Below, piece by piece: positions 13,580 through 36,110 of a stretch of DNA of 64,000 nt. Under the pieces are notes generated by a model. It was not told the DNA's origin. It did no database searches and saw only the letters and a program-made list of their open reading frames with translations. The stretch is from Streptosporangium becharense. GTDB taxonomy: Bacteria > Actinomycetota > Actinomycetes > Streptosporangiales > Streptosporangiaceae. A program made the position numbers and the translations under genes. Each line of letters opens with the position of its first letter. The stretch's first letter is position 1. The DNA lies in contig NZ_JACHMP010000001.1 in NCBI RefSeq assembly GCF_014204985.1, positions 6,696,001 through 6,760,000 on the forward strand, written 5' to 3'.

Positions 13580-14542
13580 TTACTGCGTGGGCACCCTATG
13601 ACGGGCGTCCCGGAACTGAACAATCCTCAGGCAGGCGTCCACCAGGATCTGCTCGACCTCGTCCAGCGGGCGTCCCTCCCGCTCCGCCGTGGCGACCGCC
13701 GCCGCGGTGAGCTGCACGGTCATCGCCTGCGCCGGGATCTCGAGCCGCTCCCACGGGTCGCCGGCCGGCGGGACGGCGGTCCCGCCGGCGGAGCGGTAGG
13801 CGTCCAGGAAACGGTGCCAGACCGCCGGGTCGAGCAGGCCGGCCGCGAACCAGGCCGCCGGCCTGGCCAGGTCCCACGCCGGATCGCCGAGACCCAGGTC
13901 GTCGATGTCGATGAGGATCCACTCCCCGGGTGCGCGGACCAGCTGGCCCATGTGCCAGTCGCCGTGGGTGAGGGTGCCGGGCCCGTCGCCGGCAACGGTT
14001 CCCGGTTCGGGCAGGGTGGTGAAGGCCCTGCGCACGACCAGCTCGGCGGCGGAGCCGCCGTCCAGCCGGGCGACGGTCGAGGCCACCCGCGCCGGGCCGC
14101 CCGCCGCCCGCAGCGGGGGGAGGTCGCCGGCCGGTACGGCGTGCAACCGGGCCAGCAGCCGGGCGGCGTCCTCCCAGGGGGCCGCGTCCGGGTCGCCGTG
14201 GTCGACCGGGGTCCCGGCCGGCCAGACGGTGACCAGCCGGTCTCCGACAGGGAAGACCTCCTCGGTCACCGGACGCAGCAGGATCCCGCGCAGCGCCGGG
14301 TGGGCGGCGGCCCGCATCCGCTCGGCCAGTGCCTCCGGCTCGGCTCCGGGGTTGTGCGCCTTGACCACCACAGGGCCGGCCCGCAGGATGATCACGTCTG
14401 GTCTGGTCGGCAGTACGGTGCCGGGGGCGCCGCCGTACCGGAGTCCGATCCGGTGCAGCTCGTCGATCAGGTCGTCGCTGTCCACCGGGTAAGTGAACCA
14501 CTGATCCACGGCGCGCCGGCGGGCCGCGTAGGGTGCGGGCAT
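13580..14542 (-). CDS. Aminoglycoside phosphotransferase-family (APH) protein
   Basis: About 320 residues with the APH/choline kinase-like fold. The catalytic loop is T-H-G-D-W-H-M-G-Q, with the metal-binding D in I-L-I-D-I-D-D-L-G-L-G-D-P-A-W-D-L, a recognisable Brenner-type loop. The usual N four residues after H-G-D is Q here. The N-terminal lobe has V-V-V-K-A (ATP lysine). Start is uncertain: ATG 14542 collides with the divergent start at 14541, ATG 14596 is longer, and GTG 14509 would leave room for a promoter. The substrate is unknown; genuine aminoglycoside resistance should not be assumed. Confidence 0.8.
   Translation of the reverse strand: MPAPYAARRRAVDQWFTYPVDSDDLIDELHRIGLRYGGAPGTVLPTRPDVIILRAGPVVVKAHNPGAEPEALAERMRAAAHPALRGILLRPVTEEVFPVGDRLVTVWPAGTPVDHGDPDAAPWEDAARLLARLHAVPAGDLPPLRAAGGPARVASTVARLDGGSAAELVVRRAFTTLPEPGTVAGDGPGTLTHGDWHMGQLVRAPGEWILIDIDDLGLGDPAWDLARPAAWFAAGLLDPAVWHRFLDAYRSAGGTAVPPAGDPWERLEIPAQAMTVQLTAAAVATAEREGRPLDEVEQILVDACLRIVQFRDARHRVPTQ
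14528..14533 (+). promoter_or_regulatory. Predicted -10 element of leaderless LLM oxidoreductase mRNA
   Basis: TAGGGT (TANNNT form) ends 7 nt before the ATG at 14541, the spacing expected when transcription starts on the start codon. No Shine-Dalgarno sequence is visible, which supports a leaderless mRNA. Confidence 0.45.
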
Positions 14543-25497: not shown

Positions 25498-26454
25498 ATG
25501 GACCACTCCGAGTTCAACGACGACGTCGACGGTCTCCACCGCGGAGACTACGCCGGCCTGCCGATCGTCGGCCTTCGCCCGCCGGGTGCCCCCATGCCCG
25601 CCGCGGGCGAGGCGGCCTGGCGCGTCTCGGTCGAGACCTACGACGCCGAGGAGACGTTCGAGGAGCACTTCGCGCGTTTCGCCGAGACCGTCGACACCAC
25701 CGAGGTCAGGGCGCTCATCGTCGGCGGCTGGGAGGACGCCTACGAGAACGACTCGTCGGTGCCCGTCCGGCTCCTGGTGGAGAACGCGCCGCGCTTCCCC
25801 GCGCTGCGTTCGCTCTTCCTCGGCGCGATGCCCGCCGAGGAGTGCGAGATCTCCTGGATCCAGCAGAGCGACGTCACGCCCCTGCTGGAGGCGTTCCCGC
25901 TGCTGGAACGGCTGGAGGTGCGCGGCGGCTCCGGGCTGGCGCTCCGGCCGGTCGGCCACGACCGCCTGCGGATGCTGCGGCTGGAGTCGGGCGGGCTGCC
26001 CGCCGAGGTGGTCAGGGCGGTCGGCGACAGCGAGCTGCCCGCGCTCGAATACCTGGAACTCTGGCTCGGCGTGAGCGAGTACGGCGGCGACGTCGCCGTG
26101 ACCGACATGGAGGCCGTCCTGTCCGGCGCCCGGCTGCCCGCGCTCAGGCACCTGGGGCTGCAGGACAGCGAGATCCAGGACCAGGTGGCCGCGGCGGTGG
26201 CGGCGGCGCCGGTCGTGGACCGGCTGGAGTCGCTCGCCCTGTCCATGGGCACGCTGACCGACACCGGCGCCGAGGCGCTGCTGTCCGGCCGGTCGCTGGC
26301 CCACCTCAAGCGCCTCGACCTGCACCACCACTTCCTGTCCGACGCCATGCAGCGGCGCCTGCGGGAGGCGTTCGCGGGCACCGGCGTCGAGCTCGACCTC
26401 TCCGGCCGGGAGCGGCCCGACGGCACCCGGCGTTACGTCGCGGTCTCCGAGTGA
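25498..26454 (+). CDS. STM4015 family protein (leucine-rich-repeat-like)
   Basis: A 318-residue protein of the STM4015 family. The pattern of L-x-x-L-x-L spacing (for example L-P-A-L-E-Y-L-E-L, L-P-A-L-R-H-L-G-L, L-A-H-L-K-R-L-D-L) shows irregular leucine-rich repeats through the C-terminal two thirds. The acidic N-terminus contains D-Y-A-G-L-P-I-V. No catalytic motif is visible. It is the first gene of a five-gene operon with GTGA/ATGA overlaps that matches the STM4011-STM4015 set named after Salmonella genes. It probably serves as a binding or scaffold partner for the enzymes. GGGAG precedes ATG 25498. Confidence 0.82.
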   Translation: MDHSEFNDDVDGLHRGDYAGLPIVGLRPPGAPMPAAGEAAWRVSVETYDAEETFEEHFARFAETVDTTEVRALIVGGWEDAYENDSSVPVRLLVENAPRFPALRSLFLGAMPAEECEISWIQQSDVTPLLEAFPLLERLEVRGGSGLALRPVGHDRLRMLRLESGGLPAEVVRAVGDSELPALEYLELWLGVSEYGGDVAVTDMEAVLSGARLPALRHLGLQDSEIQDQVAAAVAAAPVVDRLESLALSMGTLTDTGAEALLSGRSLAHLKRLDLHHHFLSDAMQRRLREAFAGTGVELDLSGRERPDGTRRYVAVSE

Positions 26455-27695
26455 CCGCCCTCGCCGTCGTCGGGACCCCCGGTGACCGGCGGGTGGACCT
26501 GTTCGCCGCGGCGTGCACCCGGCACGGCCTGGCCGCGCCGGCGGTCGTGCCGTGGGTCCGCGTGCTGCGCGGCGAGGAGATCCGGCTGGAGCCCGGCGCG
26601 CTCGTGCGGATCGACTCACCCGGGGAGGACCCCGGAGCCGACGAACTGCTGCGCGGGCCCGGCGAGCCGTCCCGGGTCGGCGGTGGGGCCCGCTGGCACG
26701 CGGCGTTCACCGCGGGGATGGCGCGCGTGCGGGAGGCGGCCGGCCGCACGCCCGGCGCGGTGCTGCTCGCCGACCCCGATGAGATCGCGGTGATGTTCGA
26801 CAAGCGGCTCTGTCACGCCAGGCTCGCGGCGGCGGGGGTGCCGGTCCCGCCCGCGCTCCCCGGGCCGGTCCGCGACTACGCCGAGCTGCGACGGCGGATG
26901 GGCGAGGCACGCTGGGGCCGGGTGTTCGTCAAACCGGCCCACGGCTCGTCGGCGTCCGGGGTCGTCGCCCTGCACGCCTCCGGCCACCGGGTCAAAGCGG
27001 TGACCTCGGCCGACCTGTCCGGCGGGGAGCTGTACAACTCGCTGCGGGTCAGGTCCTACGAGGACGAGCGCGACCTGGCGGTCATCGTCGACCGGCTGGC
27101 CGCCGACGGGCTCCACGTCGAGCGCTGGTTCCCCAAGGCGAGCATCGGCGGGCGGGTGATCGACCTGCGGGTGGTCGTCGTGGACGGCACGCCCACCCAC
27201 GCGGTCGTCCGCGCCGGCCGTGCCCCGATGACCAACCTGCACCTCGGCGGCGTCCGGGGCGACCTCGACGCGGTCACGGCCGGGCTGGGCCCGGCGGGGT
27301 GGGCACGCGCGCTGGAGGTGTGCGCGGGGGCGGCGGCGTGCTTCCCCCGCAGTCTCGCGGTCGGGGTCGACCTGATGATCGGGGCCGACTGGCGGGGCCT
27401 CGCGGTGGCGGAGGTGAACGCCTTCGGCGACCTGCTGCCCCGGCTGGAGGGTCTGCCGGGCGGCGGAGCGGAGGGGCTCGACACCTACGACGCCCAGGTC
27501 CGCGCGATCCTCGGCGGGTACGCGGCGGGGCGTGTGCACCTCGGCCGGCACACGGTGGGGCGTGTGCACCTCGGGCGGCACGCGGTGGGGCCGGTGATCC
27601 GGCCCGCGCGGCCGGAGCCCGGCGTCCGGGGAACGCCCGGGGGAGGGCCGGTGCGACGGGCGGCCCGGAAACCGGAAGGAGAGGCCGGTGCGTGA
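26451..27695 (+). CDS. STM4014 family protein (ATP-grasp)
   Basis: A 414-residue ATP-grasp protein starting at a GTG that overlaps the STM4015 stop by 4 bp. Readable ATP-grasp elements: V-F-V-K-P-A-H-G-S-S-A-S-G (ATP lysine, near residue 163), R-V-I-D-L-R-V-V-V-V and the metal-binding A-V-A-E-V-N-A-F-G-D. Such enzymes usually join a carboxylate to an amine through an acyl phosphate. The C-terminal 65 residues are low complexity, with a 30-bp tandem duplication, and are probably dispensable. It overlaps the next gene by 8 bp. Confidence 0.82.
   Translation: MTALAVVGTPGDRRVDLFAAACTRHGLAAPAVVPWVRVLRGEEIRLEPGALVRIDSPGEDPGADELLRGPGEPSRVGGGARWHAAFTAGMARVREAAGRTPGAVLLADPDEIAVMFDKRLCHARLAAAGVPVPPALPGPVRDYAELRRRMGEARWGRVFVKPAHGSSASGVVALHASGHRVKAVTSADLSGGELYNSLRVRSYEDERDLAVIVDRLAADGLHVERWFPKASIGGRVIDLRVVVVDGTPTHAVVRAGRAPMTNLHLGGVRGDLDAVTAGLGPAGWARALEVCAGAAACFPRSLAVGVDLMIGADWRGLAVAEVNAFGDLLPRLEGLPGGGAEGLDTYDAQVRAILGGYAAGRVHLGRHTVGRVHLGRHAVGPVIRPARPEPGVRGTPGGGPVRRAARKPEGEAGA
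27527..27586 (+). repeat. 30-bp tandem duplication in STM4014 C-terminus
   Basis: Two 30-bp copies (27527-27556 and 27557-27586) differ at two positions and encode two decapeptides of the type G-R-V-H-L-G-R-H-T/A-V. They lie beyond the recognisable ATP-grasp core. Confidence 0.85.
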
Positions 27696-28503
27696 CATGA
27701 ACGAGGTCGTGGGCAGCCACGACCTGCTGCTGGTGACCCTCGACACGCTCCGCTACGACGTGGCCGAGGAGCTCATGGCCGCGGGGCGGCTGCCCACCCT
27801 GGCGCGGGTGCTGCCCGGTGGGCGGTGGGAGCGCCGGCACAGCCCCGGCAACTTCACCTACGCCGCCCACGCGGCGATCCTCGCCGGTTTCCTACCGACC
27901 CCGGCCGCACCCGGCCCGCATCCGCGGCCGTTCGCCGCGGCCTTCCCCGGCAGCGAGACCACGGCCGCGGGCACGTGGGTGTTCGACGCGGCCGACCTGC
28001 CCGGCGGGCTGGCCCGCGTGGGCTACCGCACGATCTGCGTCGGGGGAGTGGGGTTCTTCAACGGGCTCACCCCGCTCGGGTCCGTCCTGCCGGGGCTGTT
28101 CGCCGAGAGTCACTGGGAACCGGAGTTCGGGGTCACCTCGCCCACGTCGTTCGAGGCGCAGATCGCCCGCGCCGAGCGGGCCGTGGCGGGGGCGGACGGC
28201 CCGGTGTTCCTGTTCGTCAACGTCTCGGCGCTGCACCAGCCCAACTGGTTCCACCTGCCGGGGGCCACCCGCGACGACGGTGACAGCCGGGCCAGCCACG
28301 CCGCCGCGCTGGAGTACGTCGACCGGCACATCGGCAGGCTGTTCGCGCTGGTGAGCGAGCGACGCCCGGGGTACGCGATCGTCTGCTCCGATCACGGCAC
28401 CGCCTACGGTGAAGACGGATATGTCGGGCACCGGATCGGACACGAGGTCGTCTGGACCGTGCCCTACGGGGAGTTCACGATCGAGCGGGGGCGGTGGCGG
28501 TGA
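27688..28503 (+). CDS. STM4013/SEN3800 family hydrolase
   Basis: A 271-residue alkaline-phosphatase-superfamily protein. The first metal site appears as L-L-V-T-L-D-T-L-R-Y-D, and the second as V-C-S-D-H-G-T-A-Y-G followed by G-H-R-I-G-H. The nucleophile region is probably N-F-T-Y-A-A-H; the C/S-x-P-x-R sulfatase motif is absent. It therefore looks like a sulfatase-fold phosphohydrolase or phosphotransferase. GTG 27688 has AAGGAG 6 nt upstream. It overlaps STM4014 by 8 bp and STM4012 by 4 bp. Confidence 0.82.
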   Translation: MRDMNEVVGSHDLLLVTLDTLRYDVAEELMAAGRLPTLARVLPGGRWERRHSPGNFTYAAHAAILAGFLPTPAAPGPHPRPFAAAFPGSETTAAGTWVFDAADLPGGLARVGYRTICVGGVGFFNGLTPLGSVLPGLFAESHWEPEFGVTSPTSFEAQIARAERAVAGADGPVFLFVNVSALHQPNWFHLPGATRDDGDSRASHAAALEYVDRHIGRLFALVSERRPGYAIVCSDHGTAYGEDGYVGHRIGHEVVWTVPYGEFTIERGRWR

Positions 28504-30086
28504 CGCCGGGACCGGGCCAGGAGGCGAAGGCGGCGCAGGCGGCGCGGGAACCGGATCGGACGGTGGCGTCAGGGCCGGTGGAGGGGCTCGAACCGGGACG
28601 GGCAGTGGAAGGGCTCGAACCGGGACGGGCGGTGACGGTGCGACCGGTGGAAGGGGCGGCACCGGGACGGGCGGTGACGGTGCGGTCGGTGGAAGGACCG
28701 GGACGGGCGGTCGTGGCGGGCGGCGCCGCGGCGGACGTGAGACCGCCCCGGGAAGGGGAGGCGGACACGGGCCCGTACCAGGGATACGTCTACGCGTACC
28801 CGCACAAGACGGCCTACCGTCCCCTGGAGCCGCGTCCCCCGCTGGCCGAGGTGTGGGCGGACGAGCCGCTGCACAGTCTCTTCCTCTACCTGCACATCCC
28901 GTTCTGCGAGATGCGCTGCGGGTTCTGCAACCTGTTCACCCGGACCGGCGCGCCCGAGGAACTCGTGGCCGCCTACCTCGACGCGCTGGAACGCCAGGCC
29001 ACGGCCGTGCGCGACGCCCTGGACGGCCCGCGCTTCGCCGCCGCGGCGGTCGGCGGCGGCACGCCCACCTACCTGAGCGCCGCCGAGCTCACCCGGATGT
29101 TCGACCTCACCGAGCGTGTCATGGGAACCGACCTACGGGCCGTCCCCATGTCGGTGGAGACCTCCCCGGCGACCGCGACGGCCGATCGGCTCGCCGTCCT
29201 GGCCGAGCGGGGCACCACCCGGATCTCGATCGGCGTGCAGAGCTTCGTCGACGCCGAGGCCCGTGCGGCGGTCCGGCCGCAGCGGCGGCAGGAGGTCGAG
29301 GCGGCGCTCGACCGGATCCGGGCGGCCGGGTTCGACACGCTCAACATCGACCTGATCTACGGGATCGACGGGCAGACCGGGGAAACCTGGCGGCACTCGC
29401 TGGACGCGGCGCTCGTCTGGAAGCCCGAGGAGCTCTACCTCTACCCGCTGTACGTCCGCCCGCTCACCGGCCTCGCCAAGCGTGCCCGCGACTGGGACGA
29501 CCACCGGCTCACCCTCTACCGCCAGGGCCGCGACCACCTGCTGGCCGCCGGGTACGAGCAGGTCTCCATGCGGATGTTCCGGCTGCCCGGCAGACAGTCC
29601 CCGGCCGAGTACACCTGCCAGAGCGACGGCATGGTCGGCCTCGGCTGCGGCGCCCGCTCCTACACCTCCGGGCTGCACTACTCCTACGAGTACGCCGTCG
29701 CCGCCGGCCGGGTGCGCGCCATCGTCGACGAGTACGTGCGCCTGGCCGCCGGGGAGTTCGCCGTCGCCAACGTGGGCTTCCGGCTGGACGAGGAGGAGCG
29801 GCGCCGCCGTCACCTGATCCAGTCGCTGCTCCAGGCAGGGGGACTCGACCCGGTCCTCTACCGCGACCGTTTCGGCGCCGGCCCGGAGGAGCATTTCGGG
29901 GACGATCTGGAACGCCTGGCCGACCGGGGCTGGCTGGAACGCGACGCCCCGCCGCCCGGCGGCGGGGACCCCCGCCCCGGATGGCTCCGGCTCACCGCCG
30001 AGGGCCTCGCCCACTCCGACGCGGTCGGCCCGGCCCTGTTCTCCGGCCGGGTCCGCACGCTGATGGCCTCCTACGAGGAGCGATGA
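28500..30086 (+). CDS. STM4012 family radical SAM protein
   Basis: A 528-residue radical SAM enzyme related to oxygen-independent coproporphyrinogen oxidase (HemN-like). The cluster motif is C-E-M-R-C-G-F-C (CxxxCxxC) after Y-L-H-I-P-F; G-G-G-T-P-T follows. A HemW/HemN-like C-terminal winged-helix region (L-I-Q-S-L-L-Q) is present. GTG 28500 gives a 4-bp overlap with STM4013. Residues 1-80 are low-complexity repeats; family similarity begins at about G-P-Y-Q-G-Y-V-Y-A-Y-P-H-K, so GTG 28737 is a serious alternative start. The substrate is unknown; a peptide or a metabolite handled by the ATP-grasp partner is possible. Confidence 0.87.
   Translation: MTPGPGQEAKAAQAAREPDRTVASGPVEGLEPGRAVEGLEPGRAVTVRPVEGAAPGRAVTVRSVEGPGRAVVAGGAAADVRPPREGEADTGPYQGYVYAYPHKTAYRPLEPRPPLAEVWADEPLHSLFLYLHIPFCEMRCGFCNLFTRTGAPEELVAAYLDALERQATAVRDALDGPRFAAAAVGGGTPTYLSAAELTRMFDLTERVMGTDLRAVPMSVETSPATATADRLAVLAERGTTRISIGVQSFVDAEARAAVRPQRRQEVEAALDRIRAAGFDTLNIDLIYGIDGQTGETWRHSLDAALVWKPEELYLYPLYVRPLTGLAKRARDWDDHRLTLYRQGRDHLLAAGYEQVSMRMFRLPGRQSPAEYTCQSDGMVGLGCGARSYTSGLHYSYEYAVAAGRVRAIVDEYVRLAAGEFAVANVGFRLDEEERRRRHLIQSLLQAGGLDPVLYRDRFGAGPEEHFGDDLERLADRGWLERDAPPPGGGDPRPGWLRLTAEGLAHSDAVGPALFSGRVRTLMASYEER
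28578..28709 (+). repeat. Tandem 27/42-bp repeats at 5' end of STM4012
   Basis: Units start at 28578 (27 bp), 28605 (42 bp), 28647 (42 bp) and 28689 (partial). Each contains GTGGAAGG and CCGGGACGGGCG and encodes V-E-G-x-x-P-G-R-A-V. They lie before the conserved domain. Confidence 0.85.
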
Positions 30087-31054
30087 GGACGATGACCGCC
30101 GTTCCCGGCCCTCCTGACGTGCCCGGTACGCCCGGCGTATCTCCCGGGTTCACCGTTTCCGCTGCGCGCGGCGTCTCGACCGCCCCGACACCGCGCGGCC
30201 CGGGGGAGCCGGGTCACCTGACGGTCCTCTACCGGGGGCCGCTGGCGAGCTGCGACTACGACTGCCCCTACTGCCCGTTCGCCAAGCGCCGCGACGACCC
30301 GGAGAAGCTGCGGCGCGACCGGGCGGCGCTGGAACGGTTCGCCGCCTGGGTGACCGGGCGGGATCACCCCGTCTCGGTGCTGTTCACCCCCTGGGGCGAA
30401 GGGCTCGTCCGCTCCTGGTACCGCCGGGCGATGGTCGAGCTCAGCCGCCTCCCGCACGTGCGGCGCGTCGCCATCCAGACCAACCTCAGCCGCCGCCCCG
30501 GCTGGCTGGACGGCGCCGACCTGGACACGCTCGCCCTGTGGGCCACCTATCACCCCGGCCAGGTCTCCTACGGGCGCTTCCTCGACCGCTGCCGTGACCT
30601 GTCGGCGCGCGGGGTGCGTTTCAGCGTCGGCGTCGTCGGCCTGCCCGAGCACCTGGAGCCGGCCCGCCGCCTGCGGGCGGACCTGCCGGAGGGGGTCTAC
30701 CTGTGGGTGAACGCCGCCGAGGGGCTGATCTACACCGACGAGGAGGCGGCCGCCTGGACGGCGATCGACCCGTTGTTCCGCCACAGCCGGTTCCCGCACC
30801 GCAGCGCCGGTATGCCCTGCCGCACCGGGGAGAGCGTCGTCTCCGTCGACGGCGACGGCACTGTGCGGCGCTGCCACTTCGTCCCGGAGACGCTCGGTAA
30901 CCTGTACGACGGCACCTTCCGGCCCCGCGCCGCGCCGTGCCCGGCGGCGGTGTGCGACTGTCACATCGGCTATGTGCACCTGGAGCCGACCGGCCTGTAC
31001 GACGTCTTCGCCGGCGGCGTCCTGGAGCGGATCCCGGCCCGGCTCTCCCGGTAG
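30083..31054 (+). CDS. STM4011 family radical SAM protein
   Basis: A 323-residue radical SAM protein whose ATG overlaps the STM4012 stop by 4 bp. The cluster motif is C-D-Y-D-C-P-Y-C (CxxxCxxC) near residue 57. A second set of cysteines near the C-terminus (M-P-C-R-T-G-E, R-R-C-H-F, C-P-A-A-V-C-D-C-H-I-G-Y) looks like an auxiliary, SPASM-like iron-sulfur site, with the typical V-D-G-D-G-T-V-R-R-C-H-F-x-x-E-T-L-G-N-L. The first 45 residues are Pro/Gly-rich and variable. Two radical SAM enzymes in one operon point to a multi-step modification. It is the last gene of the coupled set. Confidence 0.87.
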   Translation: MRTMTAVPGPPDVPGTPGVSPGFTVSAARGVSTAPTPRGPGEPGHLTVLYRGPLASCDYDCPYCPFAKRRDDPEKLRRDRAALERFAAWVTGRDHPVSVLFTPWGEGLVRSWYRRAMVELSRLPHVRRVAIQTNLSRRPGWLDGADLDTLALWATYHPGQVSYGRFLDRCRDLSARGVRFSVGVVGLPEHLEPARRLRADLPEGVYLWVNAAEGLIYTDEEAAAWTAIDPLFRHSRFPHRSAGMPCRTGESVVSVDGDGTVRRCHFVPETLGNLYDGTFRPRAAPCPAAVCDCHIGYVHLEPTGLYDVFAGGVLERIPARLSR

Positions 31055-31194: not shown

Positions 31195-33090
31195 ATGCGA
31201 GTGCACTACCCCCGCACTCCCCACCTGCCCTGGTCGCCGGGAGCGTCCTCGGACGACGTGCGCGCCGGCGGCCTGTCGGGACTGGTGGGCCGGGAGGTCG
31301 TCGTCACCGAGAAGCTCGACGGGGAGAACACCACCCTGTATCCGGACGGGCTGCACGCCCGGTCGCTCGACTCGGCGCACCATCCGTCCCGCGCGTGGGT
31401 CAAGGCCCTGCACGGCAGAATCGCCCGTTTCATCCCGCCGGGCCGGCGGGTGTGCGGGGAGAACCTGTACGCCCGGCACTCGGTCGGGTACGAGGACCTG
31501 GAGAGCTGGTTCTACGCCTTCTCGGTCTGGGACGGCGACCACTGCCTCGACTGGGATCCGACCGTCCGCTTCGTGCGGGGACTGGGTCTGCCGGTCCCGC
31601 GGGTGCTGTGGCGTGGCGTCTTCGACGAACGGGCGCTGCGGGCACTGCGCCTGGACACGGCGCGGCAGGAGGGATACGTCGTCCGGACCGTCGAGGGGTT
31701 CCGCCGGGAGGAGTTCGCGTACCGCGTGGCCAAATGGGTACGCGCCGGGCATGTGGCGACGGACGGGCACTGGATGTTCGCACCCGTCGTCGAGAACGGC
31801 CTGAGCCCGGCCGCCGCGCTGTGGGAGGTGCGTTCGGGGGCGGTTCCCGGCGTTCCGTCGCTGCTGGCGGCGCTGGGGATGACGGCCGACGACCCCGGTG
31901 AGCCCGGCGGGGCGGAACCGTTCGCCGCCGGGAACGTCACAGCCGGGCTCGACGTCGCCGGGCCCGGCGGGGCCGATGCCGAGCGCGCCGAGGCGGCCGT
32001 GGCCGACGTCTCCGCCCGGCTCGGCCTGCTGGGCAGGACGGGGGACGCCAGGCTGGCGGGCGTACTGGCGGCCCTGCTGCACGACGTGGGCAGGGCCCGC
32101 CTGGCGCCCCGGCTGGTGGCCCCCCTCGGCATGCCCCTGGCGCGGCGCGTCGCCGACCTGGCCGGGCTGCACGCGATCCTGCACCGGCCCTTCCCCGACG
32201 AGGAGCGCCGGGGCGGCCTGGTGCGGCTGGCAGCCGCGGCAGACCTGGGGGTCCTGCACGCGGTCGCCGCCGCGGTCCTGGCCGGGTGCGGCGACGGTGA
32301 CGCCGTCGCCGCCCGCGAGCAGGTCGACTGGTCCGAACTGCACGCGGAGGAGGCCGGGCTGCTCGGCGAGGCGCCGCTGGAGCCGTTGCGCGCGGGCCTG
32401 CGCCTGGCACTCGGCGGGCAGGGCTCCGGGGCGGCCGGTGACGGGCCGGCACCCGGCGGGGACGGTTCCGGAGGGGACGGTTCCGGAGGGGACGCCCCCG
32501 ACGTGGCGGACCGGTGCTGGGCCGAGACCCGCGAGGCGTACGCGCTGGGCCGCATCGCCACGGCGGCGGAGGCGTCGGCGCTGACCTGGCGGTGGAGATC
32601 CGGCGGATTCCCCCGGCTCGTCGTCATGGTGGGGCCGTCGGGCAGTGGGAAGAGCACCTTCGCCCGGAACATCCCGAGCACCGGCGTCGTCTCGCTCGAC
32701 GACCTGCGCCAGGCCCGCGGGTCCCGGTCGGACCAGCGGGCCAACCCGGAGGTCCTCCGTGAGGGCCTGCACCGCCTCGACACGCTCCTGTCGGGTGGCG
32801 GGACCGTCGTCTGGGACGCCACCGCCCTGAACGCGGCCCAGCGTTCCCTGGTGCACGCCGTGGCCCGCCGCCGCGACGCGCTCACGACGCACGCGGTCAT
32901 GCTGGTCCCCGAGGAGACGCTGACCCGGCGCAACGCCGGCCGCGCGGACCGGGTGCCGCCGGAGGTGCTCTCCGCCCAGCTCCGCCGTTTCTCCCCGCCC
33001 TACCCCGGGGAGGCGCACCGCACGTGGTACATCGGACCGGAGGGGGACGTACGCGACGTCGCCGGAGCCCTCGACGGCGGGGAGGGGTGA
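31195..33090 (+). CDS. RNA repair protein: RNA ligase - HD - polynucleotide kinase fusion
   Basis: A 631-residue fusion. Residues 1-220 form an RNA ligase nucleotidyltransferase: motif I is T-E-K40-L-D-G-E-N-T (KxDG, AMP-lysine), motif IV E-G-Y-V-V-R, and motif V A-K-W-V-R. A middle part contains L-L-H296-D-V-G, an HD-type phosphohydrolase signature. After a Gly-rich linker (with G-G-D-G-S repeats) comes a P-loop kinase: G-P-S-G-S-G-K486-S-T, S-L-D-D-L-R-Q and V-V-W-D-A-T, like T4-type 5'-OH polynucleotide kinases. Together these could heal and seal broken RNA. GGGAG precedes ATG 31195. The next gene starts 2 bp after its stop. Confidence 0.83.
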   Translation: MRVHYPRTPHLPWSPGASSDDVRAGGLSGLVGREVVVTEKLDGENTTLYPDGLHARSLDSAHHPSRAWVKALHGRIARFIPPGRRVCGENLYARHSVGYEDLESWFYAFSVWDGDHCLDWDPTVRFVRGLGLPVPRVLWRGVFDERALRALRLDTARQEGYVVRTVEGFRREEFAYRVAKWVRAGHVATDGHWMFAPVVENGLSPAAALWEVRSGAVPGVPSLLAALGMTADDPGEPGGAEPFAAGNVTAGLDVAGPGGADAERAEAAVADVSARLGLLGRTGDARLAGVLAALLHDVGRARLAPRLVAPLGMPLARRVADLAGLHAILHRPFPDEERRGGLVRLAAAADLGVLHAVAAAVLAGCGDGDAVAAREQVDWSELHAEEAGLLGEAPLEPLRAGLRLALGGQGSGAAGDGPAPGGDGSGGDGSGGDAPDVADRCWAETREAYALGRIATAAEASALTWRWRSGGFPRLVVMVGPSGSGKSTFARNIPSTGVVSLDDLRQARGSRSDQRANPEVLREGLHRLDTLLSGGGTVVWDATALNAAQRSLVHAVARRRDALTTHAVMLVPEETLTRRNAGRADRVPPEVLSAQLRRFSPPYPGEAHRTWYIGPEGDVRDVAGALDGGEG

Positions 33091-33092
33091 GC

Positions 33093-36000
33093 ATGCGGAC
33101 GAGCGAGGAGATCTACCACCGGATCCGCTGGGACGCGCGCTTCGATCCGGCGCGGTTCGTGCTGGGAGTCAACGTGCGTGGCGCCGCTCCCAAGCGTGTG
33201 CCGTTGCCCGCGTTCGTCCCCGGAGGGGACATCCCCTGGCACCGGATCCTGTTCGTCGAGGCGGACGGCGAGGTGGTCTGGGACCGGGCGTCGGGTGTCG
33301 ACCGCGTCGACTCCTCGGGTGCCGGCCGGGTGCGGGAGCCGCGCAGGCTCCGGGCGCCGTTCTTCACGGCCGGGACACCGTTCGCCTGGGATCCGGTCGC
33401 CGGGTGGCGTCCCGCGGAAGCCGTGCCGCCCGGCAGGGCGACGGCGACGGCGGCGCGGTTGCGCGTGCTCACCTGGAACACCCTGTGGGACCGCTACGAC
33501 GGCGACCGGATCGACACCGCCCGGCGCAGGCCGCTGCTGCTGGAGGCGTTGGAGCGGGCCGACGCCGACGTCATCGCGTTGCAGGAGGTCGAGACCGGAC
33601 TGCTCGACATGCTGCTGCGGGCCTCGTGGGTCCGCTCCGGCTACACGCTGGGCACCGACCCCAGGCGCCGGGACGTCGACGACAGCGGGCTGCTCATCCT
33701 CAGCCGCCTGCCCGTGCGGGAGGCGGGCGGATGCGTCCTCGGACCGTTCAAGGCCGTGGCGGCCGTCACCGTGGAGTCCGCCGCCGGGCCGGTCGTGGTG
33801 GCGGCCACGCACCTGACCAGTGACCACACCCAGGACGGCCCCGCCAGGCGCGAGGCCGAACTCGCCCGGCTCGCCGACGCGCTGGCCGGTGTGGACGGGG
33901 ACGTGATCCTGCTGGGCGACTTCAACGACGGCGGGAGCGGGCCTGAGACGGCGCTGGGCCTGCGGGACGCCTGGACGGAGGTCCGCGGGCCCGGCGACGC
34001 GACCGCGACCTTCGACCCGCTGGTCAACCCGCTGGCGGCGATCTCGACGATCTCCGGCCGGGCGGTCCGGCTCGACCGTGTCCTGCTGCGCGGCCCCGGC
34101 CTGCGGGCCGTCGCCGCGACGCTGAAAGGCGATTCACCCGCGACCGCGGACGGCCTGTTCGTGTCGGACCACTACGGTGTCGCCGCGGACATCGCCGTCG
34201 GCGACGGCGCCGACGAGCCGGAGGAGCCCGGGAAGCCCGCCGTCCTCGACATGTGGCCGACGGCGCGGACGGCACTGGCGTGGATCCCGCCGGAGGACCT
34301 CTGGCCGGCGATCCAGGAGATCCGGCGCAGGCACGATCCGCAGGCCGGCAGATGGCCGCCGCACGTCACGGTGATGTTCGGCTTCGTCCCGGAGTCCGCC
34401 TTCGAGGAGGCGGCCCCGATCGTGGCCGCCGCAGCGGCCGCGACCGCCCCGTTCACCGCCCGGCTCGAAGGCGTGCGCGCCTTCTCGCACGGGGACGACT
34501 CCACGGTCTGGCTCGACCCGGCCGCGGCCGGGCCGGAGGAATGGGCCGCGCTGCGCCACGCGCTGGAGCGGGGGTTCCCCCGTTGCCGGGGCCGCGCCGA
34601 GGGCTACACCCCGCACCTGACCCTCGGCAGGACGCGGGAGCCGGAGCGGGTCGCCGCCGAATGCGCGGCACGACTCGGCGGAGTCTCCACGCGGGTGGAG
34701 GAACTGGTCCTGCTGTCACGCCGGGGTGCGGAACCCATGCTTCCCCGGGCGAGCGTGGCCCTGGGAACGGGAGAGGTGCGCTGGCTCGACCACGAACCGC
34801 GCACCACGGAGCCCGGACCGCGCACCACGGAGCCCGGACCGCGCACCACGGAGCCCGGACCGCGCACCACGGAGCCCGGACCGCGTACTCCGGGGTCCGG
34901 CCCGCGGGCGGAGGACGGCCGCGGGGAGACACGGGCGCTCCGCGTCGCGGAACGGGTGCGGGCCGCGCTGCCGGAGGGCGTCGTCCACGTCACCGGGTCG
35001 CGGCGCCTGGACTGCGCCTTGCCCGGCGCCGACCTGGACCTGGTGGCGGCGCTGCCCGGGGAGGCCGACCTCGGCGACGTCCGGGCCCGGGTGGAGGCGG
35101 CGCTGCCGGAGGCGGCGGGGATGCGGTACGTGACCGGTGCCCGGGTTCCAGGGCTGCGGCTGCGGGCCGGCGACCTGGACGTCGACCTGATCGTCGTCTC
35201 GACCGGGGACGTCGCCCCCGCGGAGGCGGTCGCGCGCCGCGCCGAGCTGGGAGAGGCCGCCGCGATCGCGCTCAGCGCGGTCGCCGACGCCGACGCGGTG
35301 CTCGCCGCGGCCGGTGAGCACCGGGCCGCCTTCGTCTCCCTGGCCGTGGAGGTGAAGGCGTGGGCGAAGGCGCGAGGGCTGGACTCGGCCCCGTTCGGCG
35401 GGCTGCCGGGCGTGGCCTGGGCGGTCCTGGCGGCGCGGACGGTGCGCGAGGCCGGCGATCTCCCGCCCGGCGACCTGCTCCGTCACTTCTTCGGCACGTG
35501 GGCCGCGTGGGACTGGCGGCACCCGGTCGCGCTCCTTCCGGCGGCCCTCCCGCCGGAGCCGGGGGAGCCGCAGACCGGACACACGAAGGGGGAGTCGCCG
35601 GCCGGCCCGGAGGAGGTCGTCGGCGCGGCCGTCACGATCATGACTCCCACGGCCCCGGTCCGCTCCTGCACCGAGCAGGTCGGCGCCGGCTGGAGGGACC
35701 TGCTGACGCGGGAGCTCTACGACGCCTGGGAGATCACCGAGGCGGCGGCGGAGAGCCGCCGCGACCCCAGGCCCGAACTGCCGGCGCCTCCGCCGCACCG
35801 GCGGCACGCGGCGTGGGCGGTCGTGACCGTACGAGGGGCACCCGGCGAGGATCTCGGCGTGATGCTGGGCCGCGTCCGGGGGCGGGTGCGTGCCCTGCTC
35901 ACCTCGCTGGAGCGTGCCGGGGTCCGCGACGCGCACGCCTGGCCCCGGCCGTCCGAGACCGGGCCGGAGCTGGTGCGGTTCGCGATCGGGCTCGGCCGCA

Positions 36001-36110
36001 CGCCGCCGGACGCTGCGGGGCTCGCCGAGATCGCCGGCCCGTGGGCGGAGGGCCTGCGCGGGGTCACCGTCGAGTGGGCGGAGTGCGGCGAGGTGCCGAC
36101 GCTCCGCTGA
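33093..36110 (+). CDS. RNA repair protein: MJ1316 - EEP - 2H phosphoesterase - nucleotidyltransferase fusion
   Basis: A 1005-residue multidomain protein. Residues 1-80 match the MJ1316 (former DUF504) RNA cyclic-end recognition domain (S-E-E-I-Y-H-R-I-R-W-D, with I-P-W-H-R-I). Residues about 122-370 are an endonuclease/exonuclease/phosphatase domain (L-T-W-N-T-L-W-D, A-L-Q-E-V-E, L-L-G-D-F-N-D, S-D-H-Y). Residues about 385-565 are a 2H (2'-5' RNA ligase-like) phosphoesterase with H424-V-T-V and H508-L-T-L. After a repetitive linker, residues about 610-1005 resemble a poly(A) polymerase/CCA-type nucleotidyltransferase with its RNA-binding end (G635-S-R-R, A-D-L-D-L-V). It follows the ligase gene with GGAGGGG before ATG. 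Predicted role: processing 2',3'-cyclic phosphate ends before sealing. Confidence 0.8.
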   Translation: MRTSEEIYHRIRWDARFDPARFVLGVNVRGAAPKRVPLPAFVPGGDIPWHRILFVEADGEVVWDRASGVDRVDSSGAGRVREPRRLRAPFFTAGTPFAWDPVAGWRPAEAVPPGRATATAARLRVLTWNTLWDRYDGDRIDTARRRPLLLEALERADADVIALQEVETGLLDMLLRASWVRSGYTLGTDPRRRDVDDSGLLILSRLPVREAGGCVLGPFKAVAAVTVESAAGPVVVAATHLTSDHTQDGPARREAELARLADALAGVDGDVILLGDFNDGGSGPETALGLRDAWTEVRGPGDATATFDPLVNPLAAISTISGRAVRLDRVLLRGPGLRAVAATLKGDSPATADGLFVSDHYGVAADIAVGDGADEPEEPGKPAVLDMWPTARTALAWIPPEDLWPAIQEIRRRHDPQAGRWPPHVTVMFGFVPESAFEEAAPIVAAAAAATAPFTARLEGVRAFSHGDDSTVWLDPAAAGPEEWAALRHALERGFPRCRGRAEGYTPHLTLGRTREPERVAAECAARLGGVSTRVEELVLLSRRGAEPMLPRASVALGTGEVRWLDHEPRTTEPGPRTTEPGPRTTEPGPRTTEPGPRTPGSGPRAEDGRGETRALRVAERVRAALPEGVVHVTGSRRLDCALPGADLDLVAALPGEADLGDVRARVEAALPEAAGMRYVTGARVPGLRLRAGDLDVDLIVVSTGDVAPAEAVARRAELGEAAAIALSAVADADAVLAAAGEHRAAFVSLAVEVKAWAKARGLDSAPFGGLPGVAWAVLAARTVREAGDLPPGDLLRHFFGTWAAWDWRHPVALLPAALPPEPGEPQTGHTKGESPAGPEEVVGAAVTIMTPTAPVRSCTEQVGAGWRDLLTRELYDAWEITEAAAESRRDPRPELPAPPPHRRHAAWAVVTVRGAPGEDLGVMLGRVRGRVRALLTSLERAGVRDAHAWPRPSETGPELVRFAIGLGRTPPDAAGLAEIAGPWAEGLRGVTVEWAECGEVPTLR
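34801..34905 (+). repeat. 21-bp tandem repeat (4 perfect copies plus 1 diverged) in linker
   Basis: Four identical 21-bp units at 34801, 34822, 34843 and 34864 encode the heptapeptide R-T-T-E-P-G-P. A diverged fifth unit (34885-34905) follows. They sit between the 2H and nucleotidyltransferase domains and keep the frame, so the copy number only changes linker length. Confidence 0.95.

Follow-up and report, generated by a model that had tools for sequence, protein, structure and literature searches.

Two adjacent genes of Streptosporangium becharense, here named A and B, probably encode a chromosomal pathway for the repair of RNA breaks, each gene contributing one half. They lie in a window of 64,000 nucleotides (contig NZ_JACHMP010000001.1, positions 6,696,001 to 6,760,000), which is the whole stretch of DNA analysed, and every feature of the two genes given below is on its forward strand. 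Gene A (31195..33090) codes for a protein of 631 amino acids (aa) made of an RNA ligase, a decayed HD domain and a polynucleotide kinase, and gene B (33093..36110) for one of 1005 aa that joins MJ1316, EEP, 2H and poly(A) polymerase (PAP)-type nucleotidyltransferase domains. The domains themselves, the conservation of their active-site residues, the loss of the HD signature in A, the coupling of the genes and their co-occurrence in other genomes all point to this function. Both genes are on the same strand, head to tail, with a spacing of 2 bases. At the junction (33087..33095) the stop codon of A occupies 33088-33090 and B starts at ATG 33093 or, alternatively, at GTG 33087, in which case it overlaps the stop codon of A.

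Ligase and kinase ends of gene A

Relatives were collected from 8000 candidates scored per search, of which 1306 (A) and 1283 (B) passed an E-value of 1e-3. Conservation was counted, separately for A and B, in 121-row alignments formed by the window protein and its 120 best-listed relatives (those of B include one entry identical to the window protein). In their source annotations these relatives appear as "RNA ligase family protein" (A) and as "poly(A) polymerase" or "RNA repair domain-containing protein" (B). The original prediction, made from the sequence alone, had named the motifs K40-L-D-G, H296-D297 and K486 (GPSGSGKS) in A and H424 and H508 in B, and all of them are in place. Its ligase, kinase, MJ1316, EEP and 2H assignments were likewise borne out by Pfam (PF09414, PF13671, PF04457, PF03372 and PF13563, respectively), and the catalytic residues K40, D42, G43, K486, H424, H508 and D647 are found in 121 of 121 rows. 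Apart from the H296-D dyad, these motifs thus greatly exceed what chance would give.

The ligase domain covers residues 33-182 (31291..31740; RNA_ligase, 7e-31). Its motif I, K40-L-D-G (31312..31323), is followed by E44, also kept in 121/121, and across 11 diverse ligases E39-K40-x-D42-G43, E159-G160 and K180-x-V-R were invariant. The nearest studied ligase is DR_RS15960 (DRB0100) of Deinococcus radiodurans, with 58% identity over residues 1-204. At the other end of the protein, residues 475-602 (32617..33000) form a P-loop 5'-OH polynucleotide kinase (AAA_33, 2e-24; PHROG polynucleotide kinase, 9e-11) with the Walker A motif G480-P-S-G-S-G-K486-S at 32632..32655 and with D502 and R583 conserved in 121/121. 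This part shares 42% identity with the DRB0098-type kinase across 169 aa. Membership of A in the bacterial Pnkp family TIGR04075 was discarded, since A scored 50.8 bits, from the kinase part only, where the cut-off asks for 750.

The middle region of A is a decayed HD domain

Alignment to a Deinococcus HD-Pnk places an HD-phosphohydrolase domain at approximately residues 265-400 of A (31987..32394). In Runella the HD-Pnk acts as a 2',3'-phosphoesterase. The H296-D297 dyad (32080..32085), which had been proposed as the HD motif, is literally there and yet not conserved, with H in 101/121 and D in only 24/121, position 297 being G in 48/121. No Pfam HD family matched A at E-values up to 0.5, unlike two Deinococcus HD-Pnks (4e-13 and 1e-8). 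Compared with HD-Pnk, A lacks the first His pair, some 27 residues that include a further conserved His, and the last Asp, and in the same alignment the D of the HD pair is gone from most A relatives. The motifs HDxxK and HxEGxVxxH were found in 0/121 A proteins, and the other elements of the signature in very few (GHx(2-4)G in 3/121, ADx(1-2)GR in 7/121). With D297 so poorly kept and the HD metal signature present in none of the 121 A proteins, H296-D was rejected as a working motif.

The kinship with HD domains could still be recognized. A hidden Markov model (HMM) of the 121 middle regions detected two of four Deinococcus HD domains, at E-values of 1.1e-8 and 1.2e-5, the other two reaching 0.0013 and 0.11 (for an assumed 20,000 sequences); among 520 shuffled sequences the best E-value was 24. 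The reverse search, from HD to the A middle regions, brought 3/121 under 1e-3. HD is intact in these four Deinococcus HD-Pnks, and HDxxK is kept in 28 of 29 distinct stand-alone HD-Pnks when two sets are combined (HD in 26 of the 27 retrieved, four loci being without sequence, and HDxxK in 8/9, with seven of the nine already among the 27). The exception (L176 4022-5146), which is separate from its ligase, comes from an Acidobacteria metagenome-assembled genome that also has B, and looks like a second HD loss. One Dactylosporangium protein keeps HDGTK, the other three signature elements not being seen in the frame used. Judged from its sequence, the HD region of A is a relic from which the active-site metal signature has been lost, and the whole protein looks like a fusion of a DRB0100-type ligase with a DRB0098-type HD-Pnk. 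With the signature lost from A, the 3'-end chemistry predicted for the pair must rest with B.

Domains of gene B

Protein B starts with an MJ1316 domain, a predicted RNA cyclic-end recognition module, at residues 1-65 (33093..33287; 4e-18, 66.1 bits against a curated cut-off of 26.3). An EEP nuclease/phosphatase domain follows at residues 126-360 (33468..34172; Exo_endo_phos, 8e-18), in which N129, H240, D276 and N278 are conserved in 121/121. We also aligned B with relatives from Cyanobacteria and Acidobacteria (43 rows) and used this alignment in addition as the profile for structure searches. N129, E165, H240, D276, N278, D359 and H360 of the EEP domain are invariant in it, and the active-site residues of B counted in the 121 rows are again invariant, with the exception of D649, which is nearly so. 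By profile, TDP2 was the solved structure nearest to the EEP domain (1.9e-17); enzymes of the sphingomyelinase type (6e-10) came after it, and deadenylases of the CCR4 type (6e-6) last.

The 2H phosphoesterase domain (residues 399-545, 34287..34727; 2_5_RNA_ligase2, 8e-34) contains the catalytic His 424 (34362..34364) and His 508 (34614..34616), and B. subtilis BSU11850 was its nearest solved structure (3e-7, profile). In addition, three Streptomyces plasmids and the genome G443 provided short MJ1316-2H open reading frames (ORFs) of ~230-310 aa without EEP or nucleotidyltransferase (L058 4280-5161, L059 5983-6909, L056 1477-2316 and L057 5818-6513). Both catalytic His are kept in three of the four (L056, L058 and L059), while L057 lacks the second region. 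Such fusions support that MJ1316 and 2H may act as a single functional step.

A linker of 7-residue repeats (34796..34906; period 21, 5.3 copies, 93% matches) separates the 2H domain from the nucleotidyltransferase at residues 628-951 (34974..35945). The latter has the motifs G635-S636, D647-x-D649 and D698 (D647 is invariant as said, D649 is found in 117/121 and D698 in 120/121) and a PAP_central domain at 753-888 (PF04928, 1e-11), the Pfam match to NTP_transf_2 (0.015) being under its cut-off. PAP gamma (4lt6) matched the single sequence over residues 628-951 at 5e-18 and the 43-row profile at 1e-65, followed in the profile ranking by other canonical PAPs and then, far lower, by uridylyltransferases (best 1e-8). 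The domain had been described before as PAP/CCA-like. The PAP part of this description stands; the CCA part does not, since a CCA/PcnB-type enzyme was looked for and, at E-values up to 0.5, none of the 7 rows from Pfam or the 4 from NCBIfam was a class II poly(A) polymerase/CCA family. By its motifs and nearest structures, the nucleotidyltransferase of B is canonical poly(A)-polymerase-like and not CCA-like, and so resembles the enzyme by which animals and fungi put poly(A) tails on RNA.

Pairing of A and B in Actinobacteria

We searched a class sample of 197 genomes, scoring B through the MJ1316 family and A through both its ligase and kinase ends. A was present in 8 genomes and MJ1316 in 9, and all 8 are within the 9. 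In 8/8 the MJ1316 start lies on the same strand, 5-26 bases past the last aligned residue of A, and opens a frame of 957-1391 aa. The chance of such an overlap is 2e-13 if kinship is ignored (the 8 genomes represent 5 genera). The ninth MJ1316 genome, G443, has the short MJ1316-2H protein, and most of the remaining matches to A in the sample covered the kinase part only. Over a wider sample of the phylum A was found in just 2 of 296 genomes. The module is thus rare and scattered across the phylum, yet A and B go together.

A scan of named genomes with a 12-row alignment gave 409 relatives, and the 80 best of them, from 79 loci, entered the comparison. These 80 seem to be ranked by likeness to the cyanobacterial B, so that Actinobacteria are under-represented among them. 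A is directly before B in 22 of the 27 actinobacterial loci (three show only the kinase end, where the contig starts), and the gap between the genes, measurable in 17 of these 22, was -14 to +4. The five loci without A before B belong to Dactylosporangium (four) and Actinocorallia (one). Streptomyces, Kitasatospora and Nonomuraea are among the genera of the listed relatives. The close coupling and the co-occurrence, together with the equivalent ligase and HD-Pnk genes described below for many genomes of other phyla, make the joint work of A and B the best reading of the locus, as had been anticipated in the original prediction.

Gene B in other phyla

B was also found in Cyanobacteria, Bacteroidota, Acidobacteria and Myxococcota. 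Ligase and HD-Pnk genes are near it in 16 non-actinobacterial loci, 15 of them cyanobacterial and one from Bacteroidota (one ligase is truncated where the contig stops), the ligase belonging to another subfamily, 24-28% identical in the three cases aligned. In the cyanobacterial loci (for example those of Calothrix, Rivularia and Mastigocoleus) B has the same architecture and is ~30% identical, and the same enzymatic parts are present; they differ in the ligase subfamily (262 aa, EEKVDGAN), in having three genes and in their intact HD.

No ligase or HD-Pnk neighbour was seen in the DNA examined around 41 of the 79 loci, 15 of which are from Myxococcota; two of the 41 have a weak kinase match on the opposite strand. 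Using cyanobacterial queries, we searched 12 of these 41 genomes and two controls genome-wide, and in 9 of the 12 the ligase and HD-Pnk genes were side by side elsewhere (one with a weak ligase match only). From these comparisons we read B and its partners as one functional group in which the ligase can be swapped, plus some free-standing B. As a side observation, in a B-bearing Myxococcus sp. (L150 24-2181) the remote ligase lies two genes past an AAA_21/DUF3696 ATPase gene, possibly part of a different partner set.

Deinococcus and other known systems

Three Deinococcus plasmids carry the counterpart of A split into a ligase (209-213 aa) and a neighbouring HD-Pnk (417-422 aa). In D. radiodurans the order is ligase DR_RS15960, a TIGR02452-family protein and HD-Pnk DR_RS15950, and by this order and by the descriptions in two papers (PMC1997131, PMC11833690) we take the trio to be the DRB0100-0099-0098 operon. 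The HD pair that the literature names for DRB0098, at residues 81-82, fits DR_RS15950. DRB0100 (the ddrP ligase), DRB0099 (a PARG macrodomain) and DRB0098 (HD-Pnk) resemble the window in the ligase (58% identical), in the kinase (42%) and in an HD domain that aligns with the middle of A. They differ from it in being separate genes with HD intact, a PARG gene between and no B at the locus, whereas in Actinobacteria the genes are fused, HD is decayed and B is attached. B was not matched on any Deinococcus plasmid (the search covered plasmids only). The Deinococcus HD-Pnk is reported to have kinase activity, and the substitutions H81A and D82E left its 3'-phosphatase assays unchanged (PMC1997131).

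One of the ligase and HD-Pnk pairs, that of Actinocorallia populi, has immediately upstream a gene for a NADAR ADP-ribosyl hydrolase (L179 3034-3951), which parallels the PARG gene of the Deinococcus operon. The NADAR and PARG families both take ADP-ribose off RNA (PMC11833690).

The fungal and plant tRNA ligase Trl1 carries ligase, kinase and 2H cyclic phosphodiesterase in one protein; unlike A-B, it has no EEP, MJ1316 or nucleotidyltransferase. Bacterial Pnkp, of the Pnkp-Rnl-Hen1 kind, shares with A the kinase and ligase logic of RNA end repair. An RNA-repair "syntax" of ATP-dependent ligase, kinase, 2H or other phosphoesterases and nucleotidyltransferase has been set out by the Aravind group (PMC7824862, PMC9503650), and the systems surveyed by Burroughs and Aravind in 2016, as later citing papers describe them, are alike in this overall syntax. 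MJ1316 as a predicted reader of cyclic RNA ends is credited to the same survey (PMC6514570). The general plan of such RNA-repair systems is therefore already known, and the overall kind of system was predicted before. No description of this A-B pair was recognized in the literature searched, which had few subscription journals; nor did we meet in it the HD decay in the fused A, the swap of one ligase subfamily for another next to B or the A-B co-occurrence counts.

Proposed mechanism and alternatives

From the domains we infer the activities, the order of steps and RNA as the substrate. An RNase cut would leave RNA with a 2',3'-cyclic phosphate and a 5'-OH. The MJ1316 domain of B would grip the cyclic end, its 2H domain would open the cyclic phosphate, its EEP domain would cut the end, now phosphorylated, back to a clean 3'-OH and its PAP-type nucleotidyltransferase would restore nucleotides, if any were lost. 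On the other side of the break the kinase of A would phosphorylate the 5'-OH, after which its ligase could seal. The HD region, a phosphoesterase domain in the HD-Pnk relatives, would be inactive in A, leaving the 3'-end chemistry dependent on B. A more elaborate version, which we consider a tentative possibility, is that B erases the damaged 3' end and refills it by means of its eukaryote-type PAP (which would be a bacterial relative, and possibly a source, of the eukaryotic nuclear PAP) before A seals. If true, RNA with lost bases could be repaired, going beyond simple healing-and-sealing systems.

Several observations weigh against a repair pathway of this kind or against parts of it. Regarding HD decay, the cyanobacterial HD domains were not significant to the HMM of the A middle regions, and the hhalign comparison of the A middle with HD was weak (E-value 6e-4, probability 28.5%). 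Furthermore, cyanobacteria retain an intact HD next to B, indicating that B alone does not make HD dispensable and weakening the idea that HD loss was caused simply by B. As for the 2H step, the first motif is HxN in 99/121 relatives (HxT here, with T426), and 2H enzymes are said to leave a 2'-phosphate (PMC9503650), which some part would have to remove or the ligase to tolerate.

The sealing step faces its own difficulties. The ligase domain is minimal (~200 residues), with no C-terminal ligase domain recognized, and no DNA or RNA ligase activity was reported for purified DRB0100 (PMC1978522). Both facts would suit a ligase domain that works as an adenylyltransferase, in end-capping or signalling, within a module that protects or marks ends and does not seal them. 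We regard this as very improbable, as the nucleotidyltransferase motifs are conserved and the domain is fused to a kinase that would supply the 5'-phosphate substrate of a ligase. The same paper describes DRB0100 as strongly radiation-induced and its knockout as fully resistant. This lack of phenotype counts against a repair role, and also against the repair of DNA ends, the function first proposed for the DRB0098-0100 operon. That A matches a DRB0100-type protein fused to a DRB0098-type one, that the operon is radiation-induced and was predicted to serve the repair of double-strand breaks (PMC1274311 and PMC1978522) and that the EEP domain is nearest to TDP2, a DNA-end enzyme, would all favour DNA as the substrate of the A-B pair. 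Against it, MJ1316, 2H and canonical PAP act on RNA in their characterized or predicted relatives (PMC6514570 and PMC9503650), and DNA repair seems to us a rather improbable role.

Finally, three Myxococcota among the genomes searched have B and ligase-family matches elsewhere with no clear HD-Pnk, so that B can apparently serve without A. This would be expected if B were a self-contained enzyme that cleans RNA 3' ends carrying a cyclic phosphate and tails them, marking fragments for decay or rescue, with A a separate ligase/kinase that only sometimes accompanies it. The likeness to true PAPs also extends over the palm and the central domain and into most of the C-terminal part, which suits tailing better than the replacement of one or two nucleotides. 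The tight coupling and the 8/8 co-occurrence with the ligase/kinase in the class sample, and the repeated pairing of B with ligase and HD-Pnk in other phyla, speak for a common task of A and B and leave independent tailing as an unlikely explanation.

Genomic surroundings

Upstream of gene A lie the STM4015-4014-4013-4012-4011 genes (25498-31054), two radical SAM proteins with their partners, and downstream of A-B a TetR-type regulator and also Lon, on the forward strand. We compared the neighbours in 17 named loci and the window, using ORFs of at least 100 aa. Of the ORFs flanking A-B in the window within 8 kb, none is found again in the flanks of more than one of the 17 relatives, which agrees with the earlier remark that no toxin RNase is adjacent. 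The idea of a toxin, immunity or regulator gene kept next to A-B was discarded for the same set: in the 25 largest clusters, all 18 loci share only A, B and their overlapping frames, one further overlapping-frame cluster being common to 9 of the 18. By eye, ribosomal-protein genes (L3, L4, L2 and others) were seen within ~8 kb upstream of A-B in 6 of the 17 named actinobacterial loci (L118, L125, L130, L131, L133 and L138). A tRNA-Gly(acc) of 94 bases predicted on the minus strand of the window (14429-14522) is inside long ORFs, has no Rfam match and is probably spurious.

The possibility of a phage-borne module was also considered and rejected, the collection of viral contigs having no relative of A or B (single-protein queries, which detect close relatives only). 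The phages collection, searched with A only, gave 32 records, none covering 80% of A, and the 20 of them that were listed matched just the ligase part and were all larger than 200 kb. Among the system-specific models of PADLOC-DB, devoted to anti-phage defence, A had only weak P-loop matches and B none.

The host genome (7.82 Mb) has a single match to B. It also carries, separate from A-B, a full bacterial Pnkp (TIGR04075, 1331 bits) at G000:C1:6134815-6137415 (L180 2316-4916), and thus two RNA end-repair kinases. An Rnl2-like ligase at L181 1620-2597 scored 94.9 bits, under its cut-off.

Significance

If the proposed pathway is true, S. becharense and many other actinobacteria (Streptomyces, Kitasatospora, Nonomuraea and others) would have an RNA-repair pathway with its 3'-end steps gathered in one protein. 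The decay of HD in A would then offer a clean test of which domain performs the phosphate chemistry, and the PAP-like part of B could serve as a bacterial model for the role of such an enzyme in repair.

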